Below, piece after piece: positions 7,346 to 37,060 of a DNA stretch of 64,000 nucleotides. Both the position numbers and the translations under genes were made by a program. Source of the stretch: Ulvibacterium sp. (GTDB taxonomy: Bacteria; Bacteroidota; Bacteroidia; Flavobacteriales; Flavobacteriaceae); contig NZ_JANQOO010000010.1 in the NCBI RefSeq assembly GCF_028285715.1, positions 372,001 through 436,000 on the forward strand, given 5' to 3'. Below the pieces are notes generated by a model. The model did no database searches, was not told the origin of the DNA, and saw nothing but the letters and a program-made list of their open reading frames with translations. How positions within the stretch are numbered: the first letter of the stretch is position 1; every line of letters begins with the position of its first letter.

Positions 7346-8428
7346 ATGAACATTTCCTTGAACCCTTTTCAATTCATCTTCCTACAAGGGGGGATTCATG
7401 GGTTACTCATTTTTTTCGCTGTTATCACCAAAAAAGGTAAAAGTAAAAATCGATTAATATTCAGCTTACTTCTGCTATCTATTTCCTTGGCCTGTATTAA
7501 AATAGCTCTTCAGGAGATTTTCCCGGTATTTTGGTTAGCCTTCCCCATACCTCTTTTGTTTCAGTTTGCTTGGGGCCCTCTGCTCCTCCTCTACACTCAG
7601 AGCACCCTATATAAAAAGTTTTCCCGTGCCGCCTTCAATTTTAGTCTTTTTATTCCATCTTTCCTCTTTGATTTTCTATTCGTGCTGGTATCCAAATTGG
7701 GATTTATTGATTTAGAGTTATACTATCAAATGAGTTTTATCATTGACATTGCTGCCGCAATTCATTTTTCCTTTTTCATATTTCGATCCATACGTATTTT
7801 AAAATCATATCGAAAAGGATTGGAAGGATTCTATTCTAACATTTCTGAAGAAACTATCAATTGGCTTATTTCTCTCTATATAATTTGTGGAGTTATGCTT
7901 GTTTGTTGGTTGTTCTATATCTCATCTAGCTTATATCTGTCAAGTTTTGACCTGCCATTTGCAAATCTAAAAACATATTATTTCTCATATACATGGATTT
8001 CTACTACCATCTATTACCTTGTATATAAATGGCATGTTGACAGTTCTATTCAGCAGATCGACAAACCAGTCAAATCCAGAAAATCAGTTAAAAGCCTACT
8101 TTACGACCCTAATGAGGTTTTTGAGCAAGTGTCAAAGAACAAGTATTATCTAGATCCAAAGTTGACACTTAAGAAATTAGCTAATCAAATGGAGCTTAAC
8201 ATAAATGACCTGTCTCAAACGATTAATATAGGGCTGGGTAAAACCTTCAATGATTTTATTAACGAGTTACGTGTAAATGAAGTAAAGAAAAAAATGCACA
8301 ATCCTAAATACGATCATCTTAACTATCTGGGAATTGCCATGGAGTCGGGTTTTAATTCCAAAGCTACATTTAATAGGGCCTTCAAAAAGTTCACTGGGGA
8401 GAACCCAACCACTTACCTAAAGAAATAA
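7346..8428 (+). CDS. Membrane-tethered AraC-family transcriptional regulator
   Basis: 360 residues in two parts. Residues 1-230 are hydrophobic with about six or seven membrane-spanning segments (FIFLQGGIHGLLIFFAVI, FSLLLLSISLACI, and others). Residues 255-360 form an AraC/XylS DNA-binding domain with two helix-turn-helix units (LTLKKLANQMELNINDLSQTI and LGIAMESGFNSKATFNRAFKKFTGENPTTYLK). This architecture is common in Bacteroidota and implies a regulator held in the inner membrane that senses a signal there. The next gene on the same strand, 304 bases downstream, is a CPBP-family intramembrane protease; the same order recurs near 28-30 kb. Target genes are unknown. Confidence 0.88.
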   Translation: MNISLNPFQFIFLQGGIHGLLIFFAVITKKGKSKNRLIFSLLLLSISLACIKIALQEIFPVFWLAFPIPLLFQFAWGPLLLLYTQSTLYKKFSRAAFNFSLFIPSFLFDFLFVLVSKLGFIDLELYYQMSFIIDIAAAIHFSFFIFRSIRILKSYRKGLEGFYSNISEETINWLISLYIICGVMLVCWLFYISSSLYLSSFDLPFANLKTYYFSYTWISTTIYYLVYKWHVDSSIQQIDKPVKSRKSVKSLLYDPNEVFEQVSKNKYYLDPKLTLKKLANQMELNINDLSQTINIGLGKTFNDFINELRVNEVKKKMHNPKYDHLNYLGIAMESGFNSKATFNRAFKKFTGENPTTYLKK

Positions 8429-8732
8429 TAGGTCTCATATTCCCATTTGAAGCGCAAGTAGTATTTATTATCATTTCATTTAGGGCAAACAATTTTCATG
8501 GGATACTTCAAGATAATAAAAGTCAGTACAACTCTTACCAAACCTATTCTCTCTATGACTCCTTTAAAGTTAGTACAAGATGAAAAACAAAAACTGGAAG
8601 TATGCATTGATAGGAGTATTGTCTTCGCCTAGTTGCGTAATAATCATAGTTTAACCTGAAATCCTTTACACTGTTTTTTTGACAATGATCTTTTGAAAAC
8701 AGTAATCTAAAAAAACAACTAATAAATGCTTT
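8429..8732. other. AraC-CPBP intergenic region with a micro-ORF
   Basis: 304 bases. An ATG-started 24-codon frame at 8580-8654 (MKNKNWKYALIGVLSSPSCV...) resembles the first half of a lipoprotein or membrane protein signal and then stops. It may be the relic of a small envelope protein, or chance. No convincing TAnnTTTG promoter element or terminator hairpin was seen. Confidence 0.3.
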
Positions 8733-9542
8733 ATGACGATAAAGGGAACAAATAAAAAAAAGGGAAGGTATTACACCTTGGCTAGAGTAATTCTTTTCTT
8801 TGCTTGTACTCTGGTTGTTTATATACTTAGCTCAATTCTTACAGAAAATGCACCTGAAAGAATGGCTAAGCAATTACTAATGCTTTCTGCAACAATCTTA
8901 ACCTTCTTTCTGGTTTTACTATTTACCCGTTGGGAAAAACTTAAGCCAAATGACGTGGGAATTGTTCCTGGTAAAAAGAGTGCTCCACGTTTTTCTATTG
9001 GCTTTGGTATCGGTTTATTAATAGCAATCATGCAAGTAATGATAGCATTAAGTTTTGGTCATTTTCGATTAAACCTCGTTCCCGAAATAACTATAGCCGA
9101 AATAGCGTTAACCTTGCTCTTATTTATATTGGCAGGATTCAGAGAAGAATTGGTTTTCCGCTCCTATTTTTTAAGAAGCTTAGGCTATTCCTTGACTCCT
9201 TTTTTAGCATTGGTCATTATGACCACAATCTTTAGTCTGGAACATTTAGTTTCTGGAAATACATGGCAAAACGCAATAATAGGCGCTGGCACCGGAGCAA
9301 TTTTATTTGGTTTAGCGGCATTAAAAACAAAAGGATTGGCTTTACCCTTAGGGCTTCATATTGCATTTAATTTTGGAAATTGGGCATTTGGGTTTAAAGG
9401 CAGACCGGGAATATGGGAAGTAATAGTTGAAAAGGGATATGACTCGTATGTTAACAATATTGGTATGGGCGCTTATATATTTGTAATGGGTTTAGCGATT
9501 GCCGGGGTTTGTATTGTCTATAGGAGAGAAAAGTTGTCTTAA
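8733..9542 (+). CDS. CPBP-family intramembrane glutamic endopeptidase
   Basis: The 269-residue polytopic membrane protein has all three CPBP (CAAX protease and bacteriocin-processing, Abi/Rce1-like) motifs: EELVFR (EExxxR), FSLEH (FxxxH) and HIAFN (HxxxN). These place the catalytic glutamates and histidines within the membrane. About seven or eight hydrophobic segments are visible. Family members cleave prenylated or membrane peptides, and some are linked to bacteriocin immunity; the bacterial substrate is usually unknown. It follows a membrane AraC regulator on the same strand and precedes a hairpin (9550-9580). Confidence 0.88.
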   Translation: MTIKGTNKKKGRYYTLARVILFFACTLVVYILSSILTENAPERMAKQLLMLSATILTFFLVLLFTRWEKLKPNDVGIVPGKKSAPRFSIGFGIGLLIAIMQVMIALSFGHFRLNLVPEITIAEIALTLLLFILAGFREELVFRSYFLRSLGYSLTPFLALVIMTTIFSLEHLVSGNTWQNAIIGAGTGAILFGLAALKTKGLALPLGLHIAFNFGNWAFGFKGRPGIWEVIVEKGYDSYVNNIGMGAYIFVMGLAIAGVCIVYRREKLS

Positions 9543-9746: not shown

Positions 9747-10283
9747 CTAGCCCAGTGTTTTTCCTATGGGAATCACCTCACCATAACCAACTTGATACCG
9801 CTCAAAAGCCTCCTCTAGAGGGGTTTGGTATGCTCTGGACAAAAGTATACGGATAGGCCCTGCATGGGTCACCACGATCACTTTTTTGGAATGTGTTGCC
9901 AATAGGGCTTTATACCATTGGTTAACACGATGGGCAAGCATCTGCATTGATTCACCATTCGGAACTTGATAGTTGACAAAATCTTCCATCCAAGGATTTA
10001 GCTCCTGTTTGGGTACCTGGTCCCAAGGCTTCAGCTCCCAATCACCAAAATCCATTTCCATTAGGTTCGGACTTTTCTCCAATTTTTGGTGGGATATCCG
10101 TTTTGCCAATGCAAGGCACCTTTTTAGAGGACTGGTATAAATTACATCAACCGTATCGGGTAGTTGGGCCAATACACTCTTGGATTCTTCCAAGAAAGTC
10201 TCCGCCAAAGGAATATCCGATTGGCCGTAACATATCCCTTTAGCCATATCTGGCGTGGTATGCCGAACTAAATAAATTTCCAT
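9747..10283 (-). CDS. cobC: Alpha-ribazole phosphatase / histidine phosphatase family
   Basis: The 178-residue phosphoglycerate-mutase-like phosphatase carries the catalytic motif LVRHT near the start, the partner arginine in TSPLKRC, and the second histidine in VVTHAGPIR. In cobalamin synthesis CobC dephosphorylates alpha-ribazole phosphate or adenosylcobalamin phosphate. That function is inferred from its place as last gene of cobU-cobT-cobS-cobC; the family alone is generic. The start is the ATG at 10283 (MEIYLVRHT), which overlaps the end of cobS by 16 bases; an upstream in-frame start would add a tail that the family lacks. Translation is probably coupled to cobS. Confidence 0.85.
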   Translation of the reverse strand: MEIYLVRHTTPDMAKGICYGQSDIPLAETFLEESKSVLAQLPDTVDVIYTSPLKRCLALAKRISHQKLEKSPNLMEMDFGDWELKPWDQVPKQELNPWMEDFVNYQVPNGESMQMLAHRVNQWYKALLATHSKKVIVVTHAGPIRILLSRAYQTPLEEAFERYQVGYGEVIPIGKTLG

Positions 10284-11053
10284 GCCAAAACAATAAGGAA
10301 GTAATAAACTACTTCTACAACCTGTTGCGTTGCCCCAAGGCAATCACCCGTATAGCCGCCAATTTTCTTTTGGAAAATGTTGCTAAGGTATATTTTGACC
10401 AAGTAGAGTACTATGGGAACAAAACACCACCACAACTGCCCCATGAGTAATGCAATTACTGCCGTAGGCAGCAATCCAAAAATAAGCACGAGTACCACAT
10501 TGGTTGGGGAATAGGACTGTGCCACGGGCTTTGCCTTACTCGAACCGTCTTCCCGAACGTACTGATGTGTGAATATTACCATGGCGGCCATTACCCTACT
10601 GATTGTATGTCCGTTGATTATGATGAGCAAGAGATGAATATAATCATATTGGCCAGATACTTTTACCAAGAGTGTCCCTTTGAGTAAGAATAGGAGAAGG
10701 AGACCCACAACCGCGTAGGTCCCTACCCTGCTGTCTTTCATTATCTTAAGAATCTGATCTTTGGTCCATCCGCCCCCAAATCCATCACATACATCCGCAA
10801 ACCCATCTTCATGAAAAGCTCCTGTGAGCCATACGGAGATTGCAATACAAAAAAATGCAGCGAACCATGGGCCTATAAGCCAATTGCCCAACACTAGACC
10901 AAGCCCGGAAACTGTACCAACGATCCATCCGATCAAGGGAAAGTACCGCACCGATTTATTAATGTAGTCTGGGCTGTGATCTACCCATGAGGGACAAGGA
11001 ATGCGGGTGTAAAACATAACTGCCGTTAAAAAAATCTTCAGTTCTTCCTTCAT
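10268..11053 (-). CDS. cobS: Adenosylcobinamide-GDP ribazoletransferase (cobalamin synthase)
   Basis: CobS joins adenosylcobinamide-GDP with alpha-ribazole (phosphate), the last step of the nucleotide loop pathway, in the inner membrane. The 261 residues start with MKEELKIFLTAVMFYTRIPCP, the family N-terminus. They carry the acidic metal-binding stretch GAFHEDGFADVCDGFGGG near residue 80 and several hydrophobic helices. The length is normal. The gene overlaps cobT by 4 bases upstream and cobC by 16 bases downstream, so the four cob genes form a tight operon. Confidence 0.95.
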   Translation of the reverse strand: MKEELKIFLTAVMFYTRIPCPSWVDHSPDYINKSVRYFPLIGWIVGTVSGLGLVLGNWLIGPWFAAFFCIAISVWLTGAFHEDGFADVCDGFGGGWTKDQILKIMKDSRVGTYAVVGLLLLFLLKGTLLVKVSGQYDYIHLLLIIINGHTISRVMAAMVIFTHQYVREDGSSKAKPVAQSYSPTNVVLVLIFGLLPTAVIALLMGQLWWCFVPIVLYLVKIYLSNIFQKKIGGYTGDCLGATQQVVEVVYYFLIVLAWKFI

Positions 11054-12111
11054 TCGTCCGATTTTCCGGTTACTCCTGCCGAATCGAAACTGGCCATTTC
11101 ATTCAATACCGATACGGACATCCGTACTAAAGGGTAGGCCGCAGCACAGCCCGTCCCTTCACCGAGTCTCATTTGCAATTCCAATAATGGATTTGCCTTT
11201 AAAAAAGCCAGCGCCTTGGTGTGGCCCAATTCCTCCGAATGGTGTGTGAAAACCGCAAAATCCCCAATTTCCGGCGCCATGCTATGCGCCACTAAAAAAG
11301 CGGCCGTTGAAATAAAACCATCCACCAATACAAGGCAACGTTTGGATGCCGCTTCCAACATGCCCCCGACCATTTGGGCAATCTCAAAACCTCCGAATGT
11401 TGCCAGGACCTGGTCGGCATCTTCTCCAGCAGTAAGCCCATGGAATTTTTGCGCGTTTTGCAATGTTTTGAGCTTTTGTGCCAAGAAATCACCTGTAGCG
11501 CCCGTACCTTTGCCTACGCAATCGGATAATGGGATGTTGCAAAGTGTGCTCATAATCAGTGATGCTGAGGAGGTATTGCCTATTCCCATTTCTCCAAAGC
11601 CGATTACATTTGTACCTTTTGATAAGGTATCGGCAACAATGTCCGCTCCTTTTTGCATGGCGGTATGACAAGCCACAAGACTCATGGCGGGCCCTAATCT
11701 ATAATCTGCCGTACCCAAGCCCATTTTAGCATGTACCATGGGGAGATCTGGTTCAAAATTGTGGTTCACGCCTGCGTCCACCACGACCACCTGCATTCCC
11801 GCTACCCCGGACATCGTATTTATGGCCGCTCCCTTACCTAAAAAATTCATCACCATTTGATAGGTAACTTCCTGAGGATATGGATTGACCAAACCTGATT
11901 TCGCAATTCCATGATCACCCGCGAAAACCATTACTATAGGTTCCTTCAACGAGGGAGTGAGTGTTCCTTGTAAACGGGCTATTTGAAAGGCAAGACGTTC
12001 TAGTTTGCCCAAAGAGCCGGGCGGTTTTGTCTTATGATTCAACTTATCCCATATCTGGGAATCGAGATCAGTTGGTACAGGCACTATGGATTTTTGAAAT
12101 TTGTCCGTCAT
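11050..12111 (-). CDS. cobT: Nicotinate-nucleotide--dimethylbenzimidazole phosphoribosyltransferase
   Basis: CobT transfers phosphoribose from nicotinate mononucleotide to the lower-ligand base, giving alpha-ribazole phosphate. The 353-residue protein has the family motifs KTKPPGSLGKLE near residue 25, FAGDHGIA, GEMGIGNT, and near the C-terminus LGEGTGCA, which holds the catalytic glutamate. The ATG at 12111 (MTDKFQKS) was chosen; an upstream TTG-type extension of 26 residues would run into cobU and is not family-like. It sits 13 bases after cobU and overlaps cobS by 4 bases. Confidence 0.95.
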   Translation of the reverse strand: MTDKFQKSIVPVPTDLDSQIWDKLNHKTKPPGSLGKLERLAFQIARLQGTLTPSLKEPIVMVFAGDHGIAKSGLVNPYPQEVTYQMVMNFLGKGAAINTMSGVAGMQVVVVDAGVNHNFEPDLPMVHAKMGLGTADYRLGPAMSLVACHTAMQKGADIVADTLSKGTNVIGFGEMGIGNTSSASLIMSTLCNIPLSDCVGKGTGATGDFLAQKLKTLQNAQKFHGLTAGEDADQVLATFGGFEIAQMVGGMLEAASKRCLVLVDGFISTAAFLVAHSMAPEIGDFAVFTHHSEELGHTKALAFLKANPLLELQMRLGEGTGCAAAYPLVRMSVSVLNEMASFDSAGVTGKSDE

Positions 12112-12124
12112 GCGTAAAGTAAAT

Positions 12125-12628
12125 TTATTTGAGTTGAAGGGGCAAACCCGATACCATAAATACCGCCTTATCGGCACTTTTTGCGACAAATTGATTCATC
12201 CAACCTTGTAATTCTGTAAATTTTCTACCGATATGGCTTTCGGCATGTCCCCCCATACCAATCTCATTTGAAATAATAATAAGGGTTCCCTCCTGTCCAA
12301 ACAATTGCTTCAATTCTTGCTTGCCTTGTTTCATGCAGGCATCGATATCCTGCTCCAAATCCATAAACCAATTGGTCAGCCATAAGGTGATACAATCCAA
12401 GACAACCACTCGTCCGGATATATCCAACTTACCTATTAGTTTCTCCACTTCCCAGGTCTCCCAACGTTCGTCCCTTTCATTTTTATGGCGCTCTACCCGT
12501 TTCTCAAAATCAGCGTCCCATTTACGGGAAGTGGCCAAGTAGACTGGGTTTTCGGATAATCCCAGTGCCAATTCCATGGCATAACGACTTTTCCCTGATC
12601 TTTCGCCCCCGGATATGTAATAAATCAA
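12125..12628 (-). CDS. cobU: Bifunctional adenosylcobinamide kinase / adenosylcobinamide-phosphate guanylyltransferase
   Basis: CobU phosphorylates adenosylcobinamide and attaches GMP. Visible motifs are the P-loop GGERSGKS, RHKNERDERW with the histidine that carries GMP in the family, and VVLDCITLWLTNW. The start is uncertain: family members begin close to IYYISGGERSGKS, which points to the TTG at 12628 (167 residues); another in-frame TTG at 12661 would add 11 residues. It is the first gene of the minus-strand cob operon. I searched the 325 bases upstream for a cobalamin riboswitch and saw no recognisable B12-box sequence, so control of the operon remains open. Confidence 0.92.
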   Translation of the reverse strand: MIYYISGGERSGKSRYAMELALGLSENPVYLATSRKWDADFEKRVERHKNERDERWETWEVEKLIGKLDISGRVVVLDCITLWLTNWFMDLEQDIDACMKQGKQELKQLFGQEGTLIIISNEIGMGGHAESHIGRKFTELQGWMNQFVAKSADKAVFMVSGLPLQLK

Positions 12629-12953
12629 AACTGTAAAATTTAAAGTAATCGTAAGGAACAACTACGGTTGATACCCCAAAAATGATACAAATTACGAACA
12701 TTTAAAAAGGGATTTCACCGAATTTTCCTTTATTCCCAATTTATGGTCGCTTCATAACGAAGATTGAAATCAAAGTCGGCAATGATTCCAAATAACTTTT
12801 TCTATAGTATCTTTACTACATACGCTCATACGTGAGCGGTTTTAAGGTGTTCAATCGCCAAACTAATGGCTGAGAGCGTCTTCTTCTTTAGCAACCGATA
12901 ACTATGGCAATGCAATCTGTTTCACATAAAATTTACCCGTTAAATAAAATCAA
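12629..12953. other. Divergent intergenic region between cobU and the CocE hydrolase
   Basis: 325 bases containing the starting signals of the minus-strand cob operon and the plus-strand hydrolase. I found no cobalamin riboswitch core, no exact TAnnTTTG element on either strand close to the starts, and no long inverted repeat. Nothing else can be supported here. Confidence 0.4.
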
Positions 12954-28033: not shown

Positions 28034-28777
28034 TCAGCTGAAATAAATACTGCCCAACAAAAGGGTATCCATATAGGCGTGCGCCAAAATTAGGACAATC
28101 ATCCTGTTCTTATACCGTATATGAAAAGTTCCCAACACCAACCCCATAAAGCCCGTTTGTACCATTCCTGATACCCCCCAGCTGTAGTGGGCCAAACAAA
28201 AAACCAGTGCGCTAATCAGAATCGCATAGGTCCTCTGGAATTTTGTTCCTTCTAGCAACCATGAAATACGTTGAATTAAAAATCCACGATATACCAATTC
28301 CTCCCCAAAGGAAGACACAAGGTAAATTCCCAATAGGGAGACCATAAATGCCCATGGGTTTTCCTTTAGGTATTGATAACCCTCAACATCGGGTTGAGCG
28401 GGGGCTACAGTCAACACGGACATGACAATGGACCCCAGTACAAAACTTAAAAGGGTGATGACGAATAGGAACAAGGACCACAAAACCATTTTTAGGTATG
28501 TTTTTGAACTCCAGATCGGCAATACCAGTCCTAGGTCACCAAAATTTGCTCTCCTTAGCCATTGCCCGAAAAACACCAGGGCGATCATAAGTACATTGGC
28601 CAACCATACAACGCCCTGTTGCATAAATTGATTCCCTTTAAAAAAGGGTACAATCATCCGGATAATCAAAAAAACGATTCCAAAAATGAGTAAAATTTCT
28701 ATCAAAGTTGCGGATTTATTGGACTTCAAATGCCTTCCCAATTTATCCCTTAGCGTATCCCAGAATTGATGGTCCAT
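28034..28777 (-). CDS. CPBP-family intramembrane glutamic endopeptidase (second copy)
   Basis: 247 residues, polytopic. The three motifs are EELVYR, FCLAH (FxxxH) and HAYMD (HxxxD/N), so the catalytic set is intact. It is not closely similar to the copy at 8.7 kb outside the motifs. It lies 89 bases after a membrane-type AraC gene on the same strand, which repeats the gene order seen at 7.3-9.5 kb. Substrate unknown. Confidence 0.88.
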   Translation of the reverse strand: MDHQFWDTLRDKLGRHLKSNKSATLIEILLIFGIVFLIIRMIVPFFKGNQFMQQGVVWLANVLMIALVFFGQWLRRANFGDLGLVLPIWSSKTYLKMVLWSLFLFVITLLSFVLGSIVMSVLTVAPAQPDVEGYQYLKENPWAFMVSLLGIYLVSSFGEELVYRGFLIQRISWLLEGTKFQRTYAILISALVFCLAHYSWGVSGMVQTGFMGLVLGTFHIRYKNRMIVLILAHAYMDTLLLGSIYFS

Positions 28778-28866
28778 ATCTTCTTACTTTTTAGGCTATG
28801 TCATAAAAGTAGAAGTGAAATTCCGGGGAATGGTTTTACTTCAGGAAGGCGAACCCTTTTTACAAT

Positions 28867-29997
28867 TTATTTTATGGCTGAAGAAAGTCTAAATTCGGAA
28901 GGTGTCTGATTGGTCTTCTTTTTAAAGATCGTGTTGAAGGAAGATTTGGAGGAAAAACCCACGGAATACATCACCTCCTGTATGGTCATACTGTTTTGGG
29001 TGTCCCGAAGTAATTTTTTGGCCTCATCAATTCTGTACGAGTTTACAAAATCGAAAAAATGTTTTTTGAAAGATTGGTTAATAATCTGAGAAAGCTCCTT
29101 AGGCGGAAGATCCAAAATGCTGGCCAGATCATTTAAGGTAAGATCAGGATTTAGGTAGCGTTTTTCCGTTTCCATTTGGAAAAGCAAAGCTTCCCTGAAC
29201 CTATTTTGTTTATCCACAGACAAGGTTGATCCGGAATACTTCTTTTTGTTTTGGGTTGAAAATGGATCACCGGAAAGTAATTCGGAGTGCTTTAAAGCTT
29301 TAAAAATTGCCCTGTTGATGAAGTAAAAAAGGAACACTATAAAGCCGAGCAATAAGCTATTTATGTAGGGTCTGTAGGAAGTATAGGGAACTATGGTCAG
29401 CAAAACGCCCAACACCCATAGTCCGATAAATGAGTTTATCATAAAATGCAGCCAATCCAAGTTAATCCTGGCTAGATTGGAATGGTAGTCTTTCATGGTT
29501 TCACTGTGTAGGGCCACAATACGTTTTGACAGCCACAAGTAGATTCCCCCATGTAGGTAGGCGACGACTACAAATACTATGGCTCCTTTTGGAAGGTTGG
29601 CCTTGCTTATAGTTTCCAGCGAATCGTTAAATGGTACCGCTACCGTTGTATATAAAATGAACAACCCTAACAAACATGCAACAAAAGGAATAAAGTGAGC
29701 CCATTTTTTAAGAAGTGTAAAATGTTCATCCAAACAAGACCGGGTATAGAAATAAATCAATGGTCCGAAAAGCAATAAAAAAGAATCATCCAGTAGTAAA
29801 ATCAGCGGAAAAAAGAACCAAATATCCTGTATTTGCAATAGAATATCTGTGGTGTTAATGGCCAATATGAGGAAAAAAGTACCAAGTAAAAGATTACTTG
29901 TCCTTTTGCCCTTTTTGTTGGACAGTGAAAAAATAGCGATAAAAAATAGCTGAAACGCTACAAGCAACAAAAGTATCGCATTCAACTTCAGGTCCAT
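28867..29997 (-). CDS. Membrane-tethered AraC-family regulator (second copy)
   Basis: 376 residues. About seven membrane segments (residues 5-240: AILLLLVAFQLFFIAIF, LLLGTFFLILAI, ...) are followed by an AraC DNA-binding domain (LTLNDLASILDLPPKELSQIINQSF and IQEVMYSVGFSSKSSFNTIFKKKTNQTPSEFR). The ATG at 29997 was chosen over a TTG two codons upstream. It precedes a CPBP protease and follows an S9 peptidase gene by 21 bases on the same strand, so it could be part of a three-gene unit. Confidence 0.88.
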   Translation of the reverse strand: MDLKLNAILLLLVAFQLFFIAIFSLSNKKGKRTSNLLLGTFFLILAINTTDILLQIQDIWFFFPLILLLDDSFLLLFGPLIYFYTRSCLDEHFTLLKKWAHFIPFVACLLGLFILYTTVAVPFNDSLETISKANLPKGAIVFVVVAYLHGGIYLWLSKRIVALHSETMKDYHSNLARINLDWLHFMINSFIGLWVLGVLLTIVPYTSYRPYINSLLLGFIVFLFYFINRAIFKALKHSELLSGDPFSTQNKKKYSGSTLSVDKQNRFREALLFQMETEKRYLNPDLTLNDLASILDLPPKELSQIINQSFKKHFFDFVNSYRIDEAKKLLRDTQNSMTIQEVMYSVGFSSKSSFNTIFKKKTNQTPSEFRLSSAIK

Positions 29998-30018
29998 GTT
30001 CAAAGTTATTGCCCAAAC

Positions 30019-32043
30019 CTATTCCCGGTATTTCTGAAACCAGGCCAAGGTATGTGCTATCTTGGTGATCAAATTGCTCGGTCTATTGGCAATGCCATGG
30101 CTCGCATTCGGTATTTCCACCAATACTGTTGGAATTTTGCGCAGTTTTAGCGCATGGTACAACTGTTTGGCCTCACTGGGCGGTGTCCGCAAATCGTCCA
30201 TTCCAACCAGTACCATGGTTGGCGTTTCTACGTTGCCCACCAATGAAATCGGGGAAAACTTCCAGTAGGTCTCAAAACTTTCCCAAGGTTGGCCCGGATA
30301 ACGGCTATTGGCATAGCGAAAATAATTATCGGCTACCAAGGTCTTGCTGATCCAATTCATTACAGGTTTGGCCACTACGGCCGCCTCAAAGCGGTTGTTC
30401 TTGCCTATCATCCAGGCAGACATAATGCCCCCCGCGCTCCCTCCAGTAACAAAAAGCTGGTCTTCATGGGCAATTCCCTTTTGGATGCAATAATCTACTC
30501 CGTCCATTACATCATTATAATCCTCTCCCGGATAATTGCGGTATAGCAAATTGGCGAATTCTTCACCATAACCGGTACTCCCCCGAGGGTTTGGATAAAA
30601 AACAACGTACCCCGAAGCCGCATACAATTGCATTTCTGCCGAAAAACGGTCCCCGTAGTTCAGAATAGGGCCTCCGTGGTTTTCAACCAAGAAAGGGTAC
30701 TTTTTGGAGGCGTCGTAATCCGGGGGGTATACCACCCATCCCTGGATGTCCCGTTGGTCAAAACTGGATGTATACCAGATTTCCTCTACCTTTCCTAAAT
30801 TCCGGAAATCCAATAAGGCCTTATTCAGGGAAGTAATCCTTGTCGGGTTTTTTGCCTTGGATTTCAAAACCGCCAACTCGGAAGGGTATTCTGGCCGGGT
30901 TTGGGTATAGGCAATGGTTCCGTTCTGGGACACACTAAAAGATCCTCCGGCATAGGGCCTGCCAATTGAGGTGCCTCCCAGGTTATCCAAAAGTTTGCTC
31001 ATCTTACCATTCAAGGCGACGTAAGCAATTTTAGTGTTTCCTTTATCGTCATAAGAACAATAAAGACCATTCCCCTTTTCATCCCACACCGGGTTGGAAA
31101 CTGTCCTATCCAAATTTTGGGAAACCACCTTTGGATTACTTCCATCCCGATCCATGATATGGAGCCTACGCACTTGATAAGCCTGCCTTTTGTCCTCGAC
31201 ACTGATATAGGCTATTTTTGTACCATCCGGAGAAACAACAGGATGATAATCCGGACCATCCCTATCCGTCAATGCATCGATTTGACCATCGTAGACCCCC
31301 ACGGAATAAATCTCGCTATTCCGAAAGTCGTATTCCCAGTCTTCCTTCCTATTCCCTGAAAAATAAATGTGTTGGCCATCCTTGGACCAGGAAAGGGCGC
31401 CTCTGTGATGGAAATCTCCAGAGGTCAATTGTCTTGGAGCACCGCCATCGGAGGGAATCACAAAAATATGATTGAATCCTGGCTCAATATAGCCCCGGCC
31501 GTCCGCTTCATGGTACAATCTATCTGTTATCCTTGGTTTTTCCGCCCATTTTGCGTCTTTGGGTTTTTCGGGCATTTTGGCCAAAACCGGCGGTTCTTTT
31601 GTTACGTTCCTGGAAAAGGCAAGCTGCCCACCATTAGGTGACCATGTTAAGGAACTTGGGCTGAAGGGAAGTTGGGTAAGTTTGGCAATTTTACCCGAAG
31701 CTATCCAATACACATAAATCTCCGATCCCTCTTCCGTACTGCTTACAAAGGCTAAACGATCTCCTTGGGGCGACCAGCGCGGATTGGATTCACCAACCTC
31801 CCTGGTGGTCAATTTTTGATGTGCCGAACCATCGTTCCTCACCATCCATAGATTGCCCAAAACCTTATCTTCCATAATGTCAAAATCCATTCTCCGATAG
31901 ACTACCCACTCTCCATTGGGGGAAATCTGTGGGTCGGATACATATTGCAGGTCAAAAATATCAGTGTATGAGAAGTTTTGTTTTTGGGCCTTCAAGGATT
32001 GGAAGAGGGCCAGAAAGACAGCTAAAAAATAGAATTTGCGCAT
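30019..32043 (-). CDS. S9 family peptidase (acylaminoacyl-peptidase / DPP-like), secreted
   Basis: The 674 residues begin with a signal peptide (FYFLAVFLALFQSLKAQ). A TolB/WD-like beta-propeller follows (about 30-400; repeated SPDG/SPNG/SPQG turns), then an alpha/beta hydrolase domain (410-674). The catalytic set is serine in GGSAGG, aspartate in GMDDLRTPP and histidine in ASHGIANRP. Such prolyl-oligopeptidase-like enzymes trim peptides in the periplasm. The frame is intact and the length normal. Confidence 0.93.
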   Translation of the reverse strand: MRKFYFLAVFLALFQSLKAQKQNFSYTDIFDLQYVSDPQISPNGEWVVYRRMDFDIMEDKVLGNLWMVRNDGSAHQKLTTREVGESNPRWSPQGDRLAFVSSTEEGSEIYVYWIASGKIAKLTQLPFSPSSLTWSPNGGQLAFSRNVTKEPPVLAKMPEKPKDAKWAEKPRITDRLYHEADGRGYIEPGFNHIFVIPSDGGAPRQLTSGDFHHRGALSWSKDGQHIYFSGNRKEDWEYDFRNSEIYSVGVYDGQIDALTDRDGPDYHPVVSPDGTKIAYISVEDKRQAYQVRRLHIMDRDGSNPKVVSQNLDRTVSNPVWDEKGNGLYCSYDDKGNTKIAYVALNGKMSKLLDNLGGTSIGRPYAGGSFSVSQNGTIAYTQTRPEYPSELAVLKSKAKNPTRITSLNKALLDFRNLGKVEEIWYTSSFDQRDIQGWVVYPPDYDASKKYPFLVENHGGPILNYGDRFSAEMQLYAASGYVVFYPNPRGSTGYGEEFANLLYRNYPGEDYNDVMDGVDYCIQKGIAHEDQLFVTGGSAGGIMSAWMIGKNNRFEAAVVAKPVMNWISKTLVADNYFRYANSRYPGQPWESFETYWKFSPISLVGNVETPTMVLVGMDDLRTPPSEAKQLYHALKLRKIPTVLVEIPNASHGIANRPSNLITKIAHTLAWFQKYRE

Positions 32044-32725: not shown

Positions 32726-35700
32726 ATGTTATCGCGAATCATTAAATTAAGTATACGTAATAAGTTTATCGTTCTCCTTTTTACCCTTTTTCTTATCTGT
32801 TTTGGGTTGTACTCCTTGACCCAAATACCTATTGGCGCCGTTCCCGACGTGACCAATAACCAAGTACAGGTCATTACTACATCGCGCAATCTTTCTACCC
32901 AAGATATGGAACAGTTCATTACCTATCCCGTGGAGCTGGAAATGGCCAACCTCCCCGGAGTTAAGGAAATCCGTTCCATATCCAAATTCGGACTTTCCGT
33001 AGTAACCATCGTTTTTGATGATGATATGGGCACGTATTTACCCCGTCAACTCATTGCCGAAAAAATAAAATCGGCCTCTGAAAAAATTCCGGAAGGTTTC
33101 GGAACACCTGAAATGGGACCCATTTCGACAGGGCTAGGAGAGATTTATCAATACATCCTAGACGTAAAGGAAGGCTATGAAGATCAGTACACGGTGACCG
33201 ACCTCAGGACTATTCAGGACTGGGTGGTAAAACGTCAACTCTCGGGCATCCCAGGCGTGGTGGAGGTAAATACGTGGGGTGGTTTTTTAAAACAATATGA
33301 GGTGGCCCTCAATACCGAAAAGCTCAATGCTATGGAGATTGATGCCAGAGAAGTCTTTACCGCATTGGAGGACAATAATAATGTAGTGGGCGGTGGGTAT
33401 ATAGAAAAAAGGAATCAAGCTTATTTTATACGGGGTGAAGGGCTTGTTATTTCGCTATCGGATATTGAAGAAATCGTAGTAAAAACTAGGGACGGTATCC
33501 CAATTTACATTAAGGATATTGCCGAAGTAGGATACGGTAGTGCCATTCGGTTTGGTGCCATTACAGGAAATGGTGAGGGCGAAAAGGTATTGGGACAGGT
33601 GATGATGCTGAAGAATGCCGATTCTAAAAAGGTTATCGATGCCGTAAAGGAACGGGTCGCCAGTATTTCCAAAACGCTGCCCGAAGGCGTTTATATCAAC
33701 GCCTTCCTAGACCGCAGCGAACTCATTGCCAAGACCACGTCTACCGTAACCGAAAATCTGGTCTTGGGTTGTCTCATAGTTACTTTTGTTGTAGTACTGC
33801 TCTTGGGCAATCTACGTTCCGGATTAGTGGTTACATCGGTAATTCCGTTAAGCTTATTTTTTGCCCTTTCACTTATGTATCTGTTTGGAGTGGATGCCAA
33901 CCTCATGAGTTTGGGTGCTATTGATTTTGGAATTATCATCGATGGTGCGGTTATTATCGTGGAATTCATTGCCTTTCAGATTACCCAACAACGTTCACAA
34001 CTAGTCGCGCTTTCTAAAAACGACCGACAGAAAAAACGTGATGCCATTACCGAGAGCAGTACTTCCAAAATGATGAATTCTGCCATTTTTGGTCAACTTA
34101 TCGTCTTCATCGTGTTTATTCCTGTCCTTTCCCTAAGCGGGGTGGAAGGTAAAATGTTCAAACCCATGGCGCTTACGTTTAGTTTTGCGCTTATTGGTGC
34201 CATTGTGCTATGTTTTACTTATGTCCCAGTAGCTGCGGCACTTTTCTTGAGGCCTTCCAAAACCGCTGAAAAAAATATTTCTGTACGGTTAATGAACCTA
34301 CTGAACAGGGGATATGAGCCAGTAATCGATTGGGCCTTGCGCAGTAAAAGATGGGTGCTTGGAATTTCAGGAGGATTGCTTGTGCTGGCCGGAATTCTAT
34401 TTAGTTCAATGGGGGGGGAATTCGTGCCAACTTTGGACGAGGGCGATTTTGTAATACAGCCCATACTGAAAACAGGTACTTCATTGGAAAAGACCGTGGA
34501 GATTACCACACAAATCGAAACCATCCTGCTCGAGAATTTCCCGGAAGTGGAGCAGGTAGTAACCCGTATTGGTGCGGCCGAAGTCCCAACGGATCCCATG
34601 TCCATGGAAGAAAGTGATATCATCATTATCCTAAAGCCCAAAAACGAATGGGTCTCCGCAAGGACCAAGGACGAATTGGCCGAAAAGTTTAAGGAAGCCC
34701 TGAGTGTAATCGCAGGGATGGAGGTAGAGTTTACACAACCCATAGAAATGCGATTTAATGAACTCATTACAGGCGTGCGGGCAGATATTGCCATTAAAGT
34801 GTTTGGGGAAGATCTGGATATCCTAAGTAAAAAGGGCAACGAAATAAAGGACCTGATCCAAAACGTGAAAGGAGCAGCCGATGTTTCCGTAGAAAAAATA
34901 GTGGGTCTTCCTCAGATGAACGTAAAATACAACAGGACTAAAATAGCACGATATGGGCTTAATATTGCCGACTTGAACGACATGGTGGCCATGGGCTTTG
35001 CAGGTCGCAACGTAGGTAATGTCTATGAGGGGGAAAAACGGTTTGAACTGGTGGTGCGGTTGGACAAACGGCAAAGAAAAGACATCGATAATCTCAAAAA
35101 TCTGTATGTGGACCTACCCGCTGGGGGAAAAATTCCGTTAAGGGAACTGGCGGATATCAGTTATCAAAAGGGGGCCGCCAAAATTTCCAGGGACGATACC
35201 CGAAGGCGTATCGTGGTAGGTATTAACGTACGTAATCGAGACCTGCAATCCGTGGTGAACGATGTGCGTCGATTAATCGACGAAAATTTGCAGTTACCCG
35301 TTGGGTACTCCATCACCTATGGCGGGCAATTCGAGAACCTACAAAGTGCCAAAACCCGACTTTGGGTGGCCGTGCCTATTGCCCTCTTATTGATTTTTAT
35401 CCTCTTGTATTTTGCCTTCAGGTCCGTTAAGGAAGCTTTGCTCATCTTTTCCGCTATTCCTTTGGCGGCGGTGGGTGGCGTACTTTTGTTGTGGTCGAGG
35501 AGTATGCCCTTCAGCATTTCGGCGGGAGTGGGATTTATTGCTCTTTTTGGAATTGCAGTGCTTAACGGAATTGTGCTATTGGAACATTTTAAGGAACTCG
35601 GACACCAATCTTTTAAAACTATGGAAGCACTTGTAAAACAAGGAACAAAGGATAGATTACGCGCCGTGGTGCTTACCGCCTCGGCGGCGTCCCTGGGTTT

Positions 35701-37060
35701 TTTGCCCATGGCGGTATCTACCAGTGCCGGGGCCGAAGTGCAACGGCCATTGGCCACGGTGGTCATTGGTGGGCTGGTCACGGCCACGCTATTGACCTTG
35801 ATAGTGCTACCCGTACTGTATATTATTTTTAGCGGCACGAAAACCAATCTCCCAAAAAAACGGAAGACAAGAAACAAGGTAATGCTGTTGTTGACAGGAA
35901 TCCTGTTGCCCACTATGGCAAGGGCTCAAGAACGACCATTGGTCTTGGATGATTTGTTATCAATAGCCCTGGAAAACAATGCAGGTCTAAAAGCGGCCAA
36001 ATTACACGTTGAACAGTCCGACGCGTTGATATCCAGTGCCTTCGATTTTAATAAGACCGAGATCTATTATCAATATGACGAAAATAACCTTACGCTGACG
36101 AACGAGCCCCTTCGTGTTTTTGGAATACAGCAAGATTTTCTGTTCCCAACCGTGTATTTCGCGGAAAAACGTCGAAATAAGGCTCGCGCCTTAATGGCGG
36201 TAAACCATTACGAAATCGTACAAAAAACTATAAAACGTGAAGTGGTCGCCACATATTACACCTACCTGTATGCCAAGGAAAAGGAAGCTATTTTTAAACG
36301 ATTGGATAGCCTCTACCGAAGTTCCTCCCGAATGGCACAACGCCGTTTTGAACTGGGGGAAACCAATTATCTAGAAAAGATTACAGCACAGTCCAAACAA
36401 CAACAAATGACTATTCGTTTGGAACGTGCCATTCAGGAAATCGCCATTGCAAGGACAAACCTGAGAAGAGTAATTCAGACCGATTCCCTTCCGACAATTG
36501 CCCTAATACCACTGACCAAATTTGTTTTGCATTCTCCCCAGATGGCCCTAAGTCCCGAGCTCCGATATTATGAAAACAATGCGACTTTGATGCAAGCGGA
36601 ACGGAGCCTGGCCACACAACAATTGCTACCGGATATTGGCCTTAACTACTTTCAGGGTACCACACCTAACCTAAACGGCACATTGATAGGTTATCAATTA
36701 GGGCTTAAGATTCCCCTTTTCTTTAGCGGTCAATCGGCAAGGATAAAATCCAGCAAGATAGCCGAGGAAATAGCCGTAGAAGAATCCAAGGAATATAAAA
36801 TTCGATTTAGTGCCCGTTATGACGAACTCATGGCCCAATACAAAGCGCATATGAAAGCCTTGGAATATTATGAAAAGGAGGGAAATCAGCTCTCCGAAGA
36901 ACTTTTAAAGACCTCGGAATCGAGTTTTAGAAACGGAGAAATCGATTTCTTCCAGTATATACTTAGCTTGGAAAATGCCTATGAAATACAGTTGGATTAT
37001 TTGGATAATCTCGACCTGTTTAACCAAACGGCCATCAAACTTAACTATCTAAACCTTTAA
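32726..37060 (+). CDS. CzcA/CusA-family heavy-metal RND pump fused to a TolC-like outer-membrane component
   Basis: 1,444 residues. Residues 1-1050 are a complete heavy-metal RND permease: N-terminal helix, porter domains, GAIDFGIIIDGAVIIVE in TM4 with the proton-relay aspartate, DEGDFVIQPILKTGTS and GFIALFGIAVLNGIVLLEH in the second half. From residue 1053 on, the frame continues without stop into a TolC-family protein (LVLDDLLSIALENNAGLKAAK, helical hairpins to 1444). The junction has a basic stretch (KKRKTRNK), a hydrophobic core (VMLLLTGILLP) and ARA before Q1068, exactly a signal peptide. Inner-membrane pump and outer-membrane channel thus come from one gene, with likely cleavage between them. 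The adaptor follows 10 bases later. Confidence 0.93.
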   Translation: MLSRIIKLSIRNKFIVLLFTLFLICFGLYSLTQIPIGAVPDVTNNQVQVITTSRNLSTQDMEQFITYPVELEMANLPGVKEIRSISKFGLSVVTIVFDDDMGTYLPRQLIAEKIKSASEKIPEGFGTPEMGPISTGLGEIYQYILDVKEGYEDQYTVTDLRTIQDWVVKRQLSGIPGVVEVNTWGGFLKQYEVALNTEKLNAMEIDAREVFTALEDNNNVVGGGYIEKRNQAYFIRGEGLVISLSDIEEIVVKTRDGIPIYIKDIAEVGYGSAIRFGAITGNGEGEKVLGQVMMLKNADSKKVIDAVKERVASISKTLPEGVYINAFLDRSELIAKTTSTVTENLVLGCLIVTFVVVLLLGNLRSGLVVTSVIPLSLFFALSLMYLFGVDANLMSLGAIDFGIIIDGAVIIVEFIAFQITQQRSQLVALSKNDRQKKRDAITESSTSKMMNSAIFGQLIVFIVFIPVLSLSGVEGKMFKPMALTFSFALIGAIVLCFTYVPVAAALFLRPSKTAEKNISVRLMNLLNRGYEPVIDWALRSKRWVLGISGGLLVLAGILFSSMGGEFVPTLDEGDFVIQPILKTGTSLEKTVEITTQIETILLENFPEVEQVVTRIGAAEVPTDPMSMEESDIIIILKPKNEWVSARTKDELAEKFKEALSVIAGMEVEFTQPIEMRFNELITGVRADIAIKVFGEDLDILSKKGNEIKDLIQNVKGAADVSVEKIVGLPQMNVKYNRTKIARYGLNIADLNDMVAMGFAGRNVGNVYEGEKRFELVVRLDKRQRKDIDNLKNLYVDLPAGGKIPLRELADISYQKGAAKISRDDTRRRIVVGINVRNRDLQSVVNDVRRLIDENLQLPVGYSITYGGQFENLQSAKTRLWVAVPIALLLIFILLYFAFRSVKEALLIFSAIPLAAVGGVLLLWSRSMPFSISAGVGFIALFGIAVLNGIVLLEHFKELGHQSFKTMEALVKQGTKDRLRAVVLTASAASLGFLPMAVSTSAGAEVQRPLATVVIGGLVTATLLTLIVLPVLYIIFSGTKTNLPKKRKTRNKVMLLLTGILLPTMARAQERPLVLDDLLSIALENNAGLKAAKLHVEQSDALISSAFDFNKTEIYYQYDENNLTLTNEPLRVFGIQQDFLFPTVYFAEKRRNKARALMAVNHYEIVQKTIKREVVATYYTYLYAKEKEAIFKRLDSLYRSSSRMAQRRFELGETNYLEKITAQSKQQQMTIRLERAIQEIAIARTNLRRVIQTDSLPTIALIPLTKFVLHSPQMALSPELRYYENNATLMQAERSLATQQLLPDIGLNYFQGTTPNLNGTLIGYQLGLKIPLFFSGQSARIKSSKIAEEIAVEESKEYKIRFSARYDELMAQYKAHMKALEYYEKEGNQLSEELLKTSESSFRNGEIDFFQYILSLENAYEIQLDYLDNLDLFNQTAIKLNYLNL

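Follow-up and report, generated by a model that had tools for sequence, protein, structure and literature searches.

Multitransmembrane AraC regulators recurrently precede CPBP protease genes: a probable membrane-integral switch with a dedicated target gene

Two neighboring genes in a 64,000-nucleotide stretch of Ulvibacterium sp. DNA (here called the window) raise the question of why a regulator built into the membrane should be followed directly by a membrane protease. The original prediction described a multitransmembrane (multi-TM) AraC gene and a same-strand CPBP gene with complete catalytic motifs, noted the 304 bases between them, reported the same gene order at 28.0 to 30.0 kb, and proposed that cleavage by the protease would free the DNA-binding domain of the regulator. 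Open reading frames (ORFs) and Pfam agreed with both gene assignments, the gap of copy 1 measured 304 bp, and the second copy was found on the minus strand, with a gap of 89 bp (Table 1). We define the regulator and protease of copy 1 as A1 and C1, those of copy 2 as A2 and C2, and those of a third pair as A3 and C3; the third pair lies outside the window on contig C29 (L001) and has a gap of 117 bp. Duplication of a module was rejected as the source of the three pairs, as each of C1, C2, and C3 falls in a different CPBP subfamily and any similarity among them is at most local.

Table 1. Features of the two window copies and of the parallel LytTR-CPBP pair
Feature	Position	Strand	Basis or remark
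Copy 1 regulator A1, AraC, 360 aa	7346-8428	+	ORF; Pfam HTH_18, 5e-14
A1 membrane domain, aa 1-234	7346-8047	+	AF2; predicted GPCR-like seven-helix bundle
A1 linker	aa 235-254		
A1 AraC-type HTH_18 domain	aa 255-360		
ORF scrap in copy 1 gap, 24 codons, MKNKNWKYALIGVLSSPSCVIIIV and stop	8580-8654	+	Read by eye
Copy 1 CPBP (Rce1-like) protease C1, 269 aa	8733-9542	+	PF02517, 1e-13
C1 motif EELVFR, aa 138-143	9144-9161	+	
C1 motif FSLEH, aa 167-171	9231-9245	+	
C1 motif HIAFN, aa 209-213	9357-9371	+	
Copy 2 CPBP protease C2 (EELVYR, FCLAH, HAYMD)	28034-28777	-	Pfam and motifs
Copy 2 -7 box, TACTTTTA	28804-28811	-	Canonical offset behind element
Copy 2 operator-like element, GTTCGCCTTCCTGAAGTAAAACC	28832-28854	-	PWM score 16.6 (99.9% shuffle level, 11.05)
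Copy 2 regulator A2, seven-TM AraC	28867-30003	-	Pfam HTH_18, 8e-18
S9 prolyl oligopeptidase gene	30019-32043	-	Ends 15 bp before A2
LytTR-CPBP pair, this genome (L003)	6152-7768 of L003, contig C9		Also L264-L271, L273, and L274

The A1 protein joins a membrane domain to a DNA-binding domain. Its AF2 model (pLDDT 87) contained seven TM helices (residues 7-28, 34-58, 73-88, 99-117, 123-159, 168-198, and 205-234), a linker, and a C-terminal helix-turn-helix (HTH) domain, and the positive-inside distribution of loop charges predicted an N-out/C-in topology. HTH_18 was matched in 70 of 70 homologues, which thus carry the C-terminal double HTH domain of AraC/XylS regulators, and no Pfam 7TM or 7TMR-DISM model was among the 25 most frequent matches of the 70 members at E values of up to 1. 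Structural alignment with VIA-align 2 superposed 234 residues of the A1 model on a GPCR-fold receptor (Z 15.8, rmsd 4.3 Å). Moreover, all of the best 50 matches listed were GPCR-fold receptors, Frizzled and Smoothened among them (Z 15.8 to 14.3, roughly 230 residues, rmsd about 4 Å); by contrast, the model of C1, which is also a polytopic helical protein, gave no GPCR-type match above a Z of about 6. Foldseek returned weak GPCR and rhodopsin matches for A1, as well as matches to AraC-domain structures. We conclude that the receptor half of A1 is predicted to adopt a seven-helix, N-out/C-in fold that resembles GPCRs, a shared fold that does not imply homology.

The downstream proteins belong to the CPBP/Rce1 family by motif, and C1 also by predicted fold. 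The EExxxR, FxxxH, and HxxxN/D motifs were found in C1 and C2, the last motif of C2 having the HxxxD form, and the AF2 model of C1 had an Rce1-like fold that matched SpdC (6u0o; Z 13.6) and Rce1 (4cad; Z 11.6). The catalytic residues E, E, R, H, and H did not vary among 26 CPBPs, the majority of which were paired. We note that the CPBP domain lies, in putative fusions, within ORFs of 609 to 623 residues in three genera (L040, L041, and L045), that EExxxH replaces EExxxR in CPBP-like proteins downstream of multi-TM AraCs in L118 (2778-3635), L234 (6817-7689), and L249, and that L234 has two AraC-CPBP pairs in tandem.

Copy 2 is embedded in a conserved neighborhood. The order S9 peptidase, AraC, and CPBP was kept in four other loci (L124, L125, L178, and L179). 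On the plus strand beyond the peptidase gene, at 32726-37060, the translation of a 1,444-residue ORF reads as a CusA/CzcA-type RND pump apparently fused to a TolC-like outer-membrane factor.

The genome contained 8 CPBP genes, 70 HTH_18 matches, and 17 multi-TM AraCs, with A1, A2, and A3 included. The original prediction had called for adjacency to be counted against background, and a CPBP gene lay directly behind 3 of the 17 where about 0.03 were expected (binomial, 4e-6, assuming 4,400 genes in the genome); the other 14 had no adjoining CPBP. Because two of the three pairs had prompted the finding, conservation elsewhere is cleaner evidence than this count. Among C2 orthologues from other genera, a multi-TM AraC was directly upstream in L123-L127, L129-L131, L133-L135, and L138 but not in L128 or L132, and among C3 orthologues the same was true of five out of five (L153-L157). 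A broader set of 92 CPBP neighborhoods from other genera had an upstream multi-TM AraC in 4 cases and a multi-TM LytTR regulator in 3, a count that includes L046, whose CPBP was masked by an antisense ORF; that ORF (L046/L129) had concealed a true AraC-CPBP pair from automatic annotation. Counted from the regulator, CPBP was directly downstream of 21 of the 79 nearest A2 relatives in 84,980 species genomes and was missing there from 58, so that, with 14 of 17 in the genome likewise lacking one downstream, an adjacent protease is not consistently linked to the regulator, which leaves room for proteases acting in trans. We conclude that adjacency exceeds the background frequency at which the original prediction would have been refuted, and that pure chance is rejected as the cause of pairing for the AraC class by enrichment and conservation, though not for copy 1.

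The history of the pairing was read from a tree of 129 multi-TM AraCs. Being followed by CPBP required 11 changes on the tree, 8 of them forced by well-supported branches, against a mean of 33 for shuffled labels, and the CPBP-linked AraCs fell into a single large clade plus a number of isolated branches. The regulators of L134 and L183 were 71% identical, yet their CPBPs had no full-length similarity, and the L183 protease was instead 43% identical to the CPBP of a distant AraC, L196. The pairing persists in many genera, with CPBP subfamilies exchanged under the same AraC, which suggests that CPBP activity as such is retained. Within the CPBP clade, the sister AraCs of L180 and L202 were followed instead by a 540-residue protein of LNT_N plus CN_hydrolase type, and other multi-TM AraCs preceded serine hydrolases, TonB-type proteins, or an AhpC/TSA protein. 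AraCs related to the CPBP clade precede a second apolipoprotein N-acyltransferase-like (Lnt-like) gene in seven loci (L180, L190, L195, L197, L202, L209, and L218), the domain pair being confirmed in L180 and L202. Tandem multi-TM AraC genes, overlapping or a few base pairs apart, were seen in L239, L247, L259, and L260.

Regulators of other families were found in the same position. A CPBP gene followed a LytTR regulator with three or four TM helices here and behind 10 of its 11 orthologues, which makes 11 of 12 overall, and direct repeats of ACYATTCAGT were conserved in the gap of about 125 bp. In addition, L100 (1453-2855) encodes an XRE-type HTH protein with a DUF4870 domain (three TM helices), and the next gene encodes a CPBP homologous to C1 (29%). 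Taken together, the AraC, LytTR, and XRE cases indicate that membrane-bound regulators of several families precede CPBP genes.

Alignment of the gaps between multi-TM AraCs and the next gene revealed a common 23-bp block, GTTCGACttcaTGaaaTCGGTCG, which was present whether the next gene encoded a CPBP, an Lnt-like protein, a serine hydrolase, a beta-lactamase-like protein, a TonB-type protein, or AhpC/TSA. A position weight matrix (PWM), begun from sites spotted by eye and trained solely on AraCs followed by CPBP, was applied to 90 held-out AraCs with other downstream neighbors. Behind 33 of these 90 the element was detected on the coding strand (0.9 expected at the 99% shuffle level) and behind 19 on the opposite strand, as an inverted second copy; upstream of the AraC gene it was detected by the PWM in 0 of 90. 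At the 99.9% shuffle level, 59 of the 129 AraCs had the element, and TTTG followed exactly 24 nt past it in 33 of those 59 sites (next commonest offset, 4). The columns behind the element read yAnnTTTG, consistent with TAnnTTTG, the known -7 box of flavobacteria and Bacteroides (PMC9723704, PMC7366714). Inverted half-sites stood upstream at spacings of 11 to 12, 20 to 21, 32, and 42 bp, in steps of about one helical turn, a periodicity that suits a DNA-bound dimer rather than an RNA hairpin. The copy 2 element is a diverged yet conserved version, kept in the four loci that share its gene order, and the C2 start codon lies 27 nt beyond the -7 box. Element strength varied before Lnt-like genes, and in L247, L259, and L260 the tandem AraCs are followed by the element and a gene of the TonB/carboxypeptidase-regulatory type.

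The element was also located without reference to the regulators. A search of the 5-Mb genome with up to three mismatches gave a single match, in the A3-C3 gap. The element together with the -7 box was then sought as an exact pattern, by DNA sequence alone, in 395 Bacteroidota genomes. Of the 12 matches, 11 fell immediately downstream of multi-TM AraCs, and the other preceded a serine hydrolase similar in kind to those under such control at other loci; a reversed control pattern gave zero matches. The element alone gave four exact matches in 395 genomes of the order Flavobacteriales, two behind multi-TM AraCs and two in one coding sequence; the latter pair, inside a sufS-like gene, was dismissed as chance. 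The modeled element was absent from copy 1 and from most other multi-TM AraCs of the genome, and thus the rule is not universal. We conclude that the AraC most likely controls the promoter of its neighbor, as the element stands there whatever the next gene is and 11 of the 12 pattern matches lie behind such AraCs.

We propose that the module probably consists of a one-component regulator integral to the membrane and the target gene dedicated to it, a reading drawn from sequence patterns that holds for the putative modules of copy 2 and the third pair. The seven-helix receptor, with its predicted topology, would keep the cytoplasmic DNA-binding domain attached to the membrane, where a membrane or periplasmic signal would drive it. 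The AraC domain would bind the 23-bp element in the gap that separates the regulator gene from its neighbor. With 24 nt between the end of the element and the TTTG of the -7 box, the element covers the -33 region, and AraC bound there would activate transcription by recruiting RNA polymerase as at a class II promoter. The presence of the element in the gap would mark the CPBP gene as a regulated target. The regulated gene would usually encode an envelope or membrane protein, with CPBP as that gene in the large clade and the several separate branches, and the protease would act downstream of the switch on an envelope substrate. CPBP is therefore best read, most likely, as one output class of the AraC switch. 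Local regulation alone, we note, leaves the repeated recruitment of CPBP with exchange of subfamilies unexplained.

Copy 1 is the weakest of all the pairs, and the chances are evenly balanced between a working module and a chance or recent adjacency. Its 304-bp gap gave no element in the PWM scan and contains an ORF scrap that may be left over from a gene for a secreted protein. Neither A1 nor C1 is conserved in two congeners, no convincing orthologous pair was found in those congeners and about 147 further relatives, and A1 forms a long branch in the tree. Fortuitous adjacency is nevertheless weakened by the strong general enrichment of CPBP behind multi-TM AraCs, and the branch of A1 is poorly covered by the operator model. 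Convergent to copy 1 on the minus strand are cobC-, cobS-, cobT-, and cobU-like genes (9747-12661), ordinary genes assigned by reading, with 9747-10343 also searched.

The protease could be both target and inhibitor of its regulator, acting through cleavage or binding, and we regard such feedback as improbable. Consistent with feedback, the two-gene order places a regulator beside a membrane protein with the operator before the partner, a multi-TM partner has been chosen repeatedly, and inhibition of the regulator by a membrane protein is described for a LytTR regulatory system (LRS; PMC6193735); many partners of the AraC class, however, are secreted or outer-membrane proteins and are unlikely direct inhibitors. 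Feedback by CPBP on the regulator would fit both the evidence for a target and the evidence for a release-type relation. A more specific form, in which GPCR-like seven-TM AraCs would be a widespread class of receptors that drive a one-site operator-promoter from the membrane and, in the CPBP-linked clade, the protease would cut or otherwise reset the receptor in a self-limiting loop, is likewise a doubtful one.

Release of the DNA-binding domain by CPBP cleavage in or next to TM7, the mechanism of the original prediction, is unlikely. Nonrandom pairing, invariant catalytic residues in repeatedly chosen CPBPs, the LytTR and XRE regulators with TM helices in the same position, and the exchange of CPBP subfamilies under near-identical AraCs would all agree with it. 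However, AraCs of this class also precede nonproteases, and do so with an unchanged operator and promoter, which argues that the regulators work independently of an adjacent protease, and 14 of the 17 multi-TM AraCs in the genome have no CPBP neighbor. Furthermore, a search for a juxtamembrane cleavage signature that would set the CPBP-paired AraCs apart found no private motif or conservation in TM7 or the linker, and freeing a domain by cutting a seven-TM protein would be unusual. Thus, of the original proposal the recurrent, nonrandom pair stands, and the release switch is not supported, given the nonprotease neighbors, the element, the many regulators lacking a CPBP, and the missing motif. 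Finally, the alternative that the element functions in the AraC transcript, as an RNA structure or terminator, rather than as a DNA operator is very hard to credit and was rejected, for although some gaps have an inverted repeat (GTCGAAC...GTTCGAC), its arms vary without compensation, the gaps gave no Rfam match and have no U tract, the half-site spacing differs by helical turns, and the element stands at a constant distance from the -7 box.

A dedicated target under a membrane-integral regulator, the reading we prefer, would make the multi-TM AraCs (17 in this genome, with relatives in several phyla) a testable class in which the sequence itself points to receptor, binding site, promoter, and target, and the CPBP proteases of Bacteroidota would gain a candidate upstream regulator. 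If true, a seven-helix receptor would be wired straight to a promoter, without a kinase or second messenger. A literature search, with subscription journals mostly outside its reach, returned no description of the AraC-CPBP pair or of the multi-TM AraC class, in agreement with the novelty first suggested for the pair.

The proposed module has features of several known systems. Like 7TMR-DISM proteins and GPCRs, the receptor is predicted to have seven TM helices, an N-out/C-in orientation, and a direct fusion to an intracellular effector, but the effector here is an AraC domain, and sequence homology to GPCRs is not claimed. ToxR, CadC, and TcpP are single-pass winged-helix proteins whose DNA-binding domain stays permanently on a membrane sensor and reaches promoters from the membrane; the regulators here are instead predicted seven-helix receptors with an AraC domain. 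The proteases resemble other CPBP/Rce1 proteins (Rce1, 4CAD; SpdC, 6U0O; and MroQ) in the motifs of C1 and C2 and in the fold of C1 and differ in that their genes stand under membrane regulators. Regulated intramembrane proteolysis, as in the site-2 protease/anti-sigma factor system (PMC10202637), likewise places a membrane protease near a membrane-tethered regulator, but here there is no sign that the regulator is a substrate, and CPBP is a glutamate-type protease rather than a site-2 protease. LRS-like operons of Bacteroides, described as encoding LytTR regulators with several TM helices and as having promoter-proximal repeats (PMC6193735), share the combination of a regulator with a membrane protein and binding repeats whose spacing to the promoter is constant. 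The LRS domain is LytTR whereas ours is AraC, and the LRS membrane proteins are inhibitors rather than CPBPs. Moreover, the LRS operator precedes the regulator's own operon, whereas the element described here (0 of 90 upstream) stands between the regulator and its candidate target.
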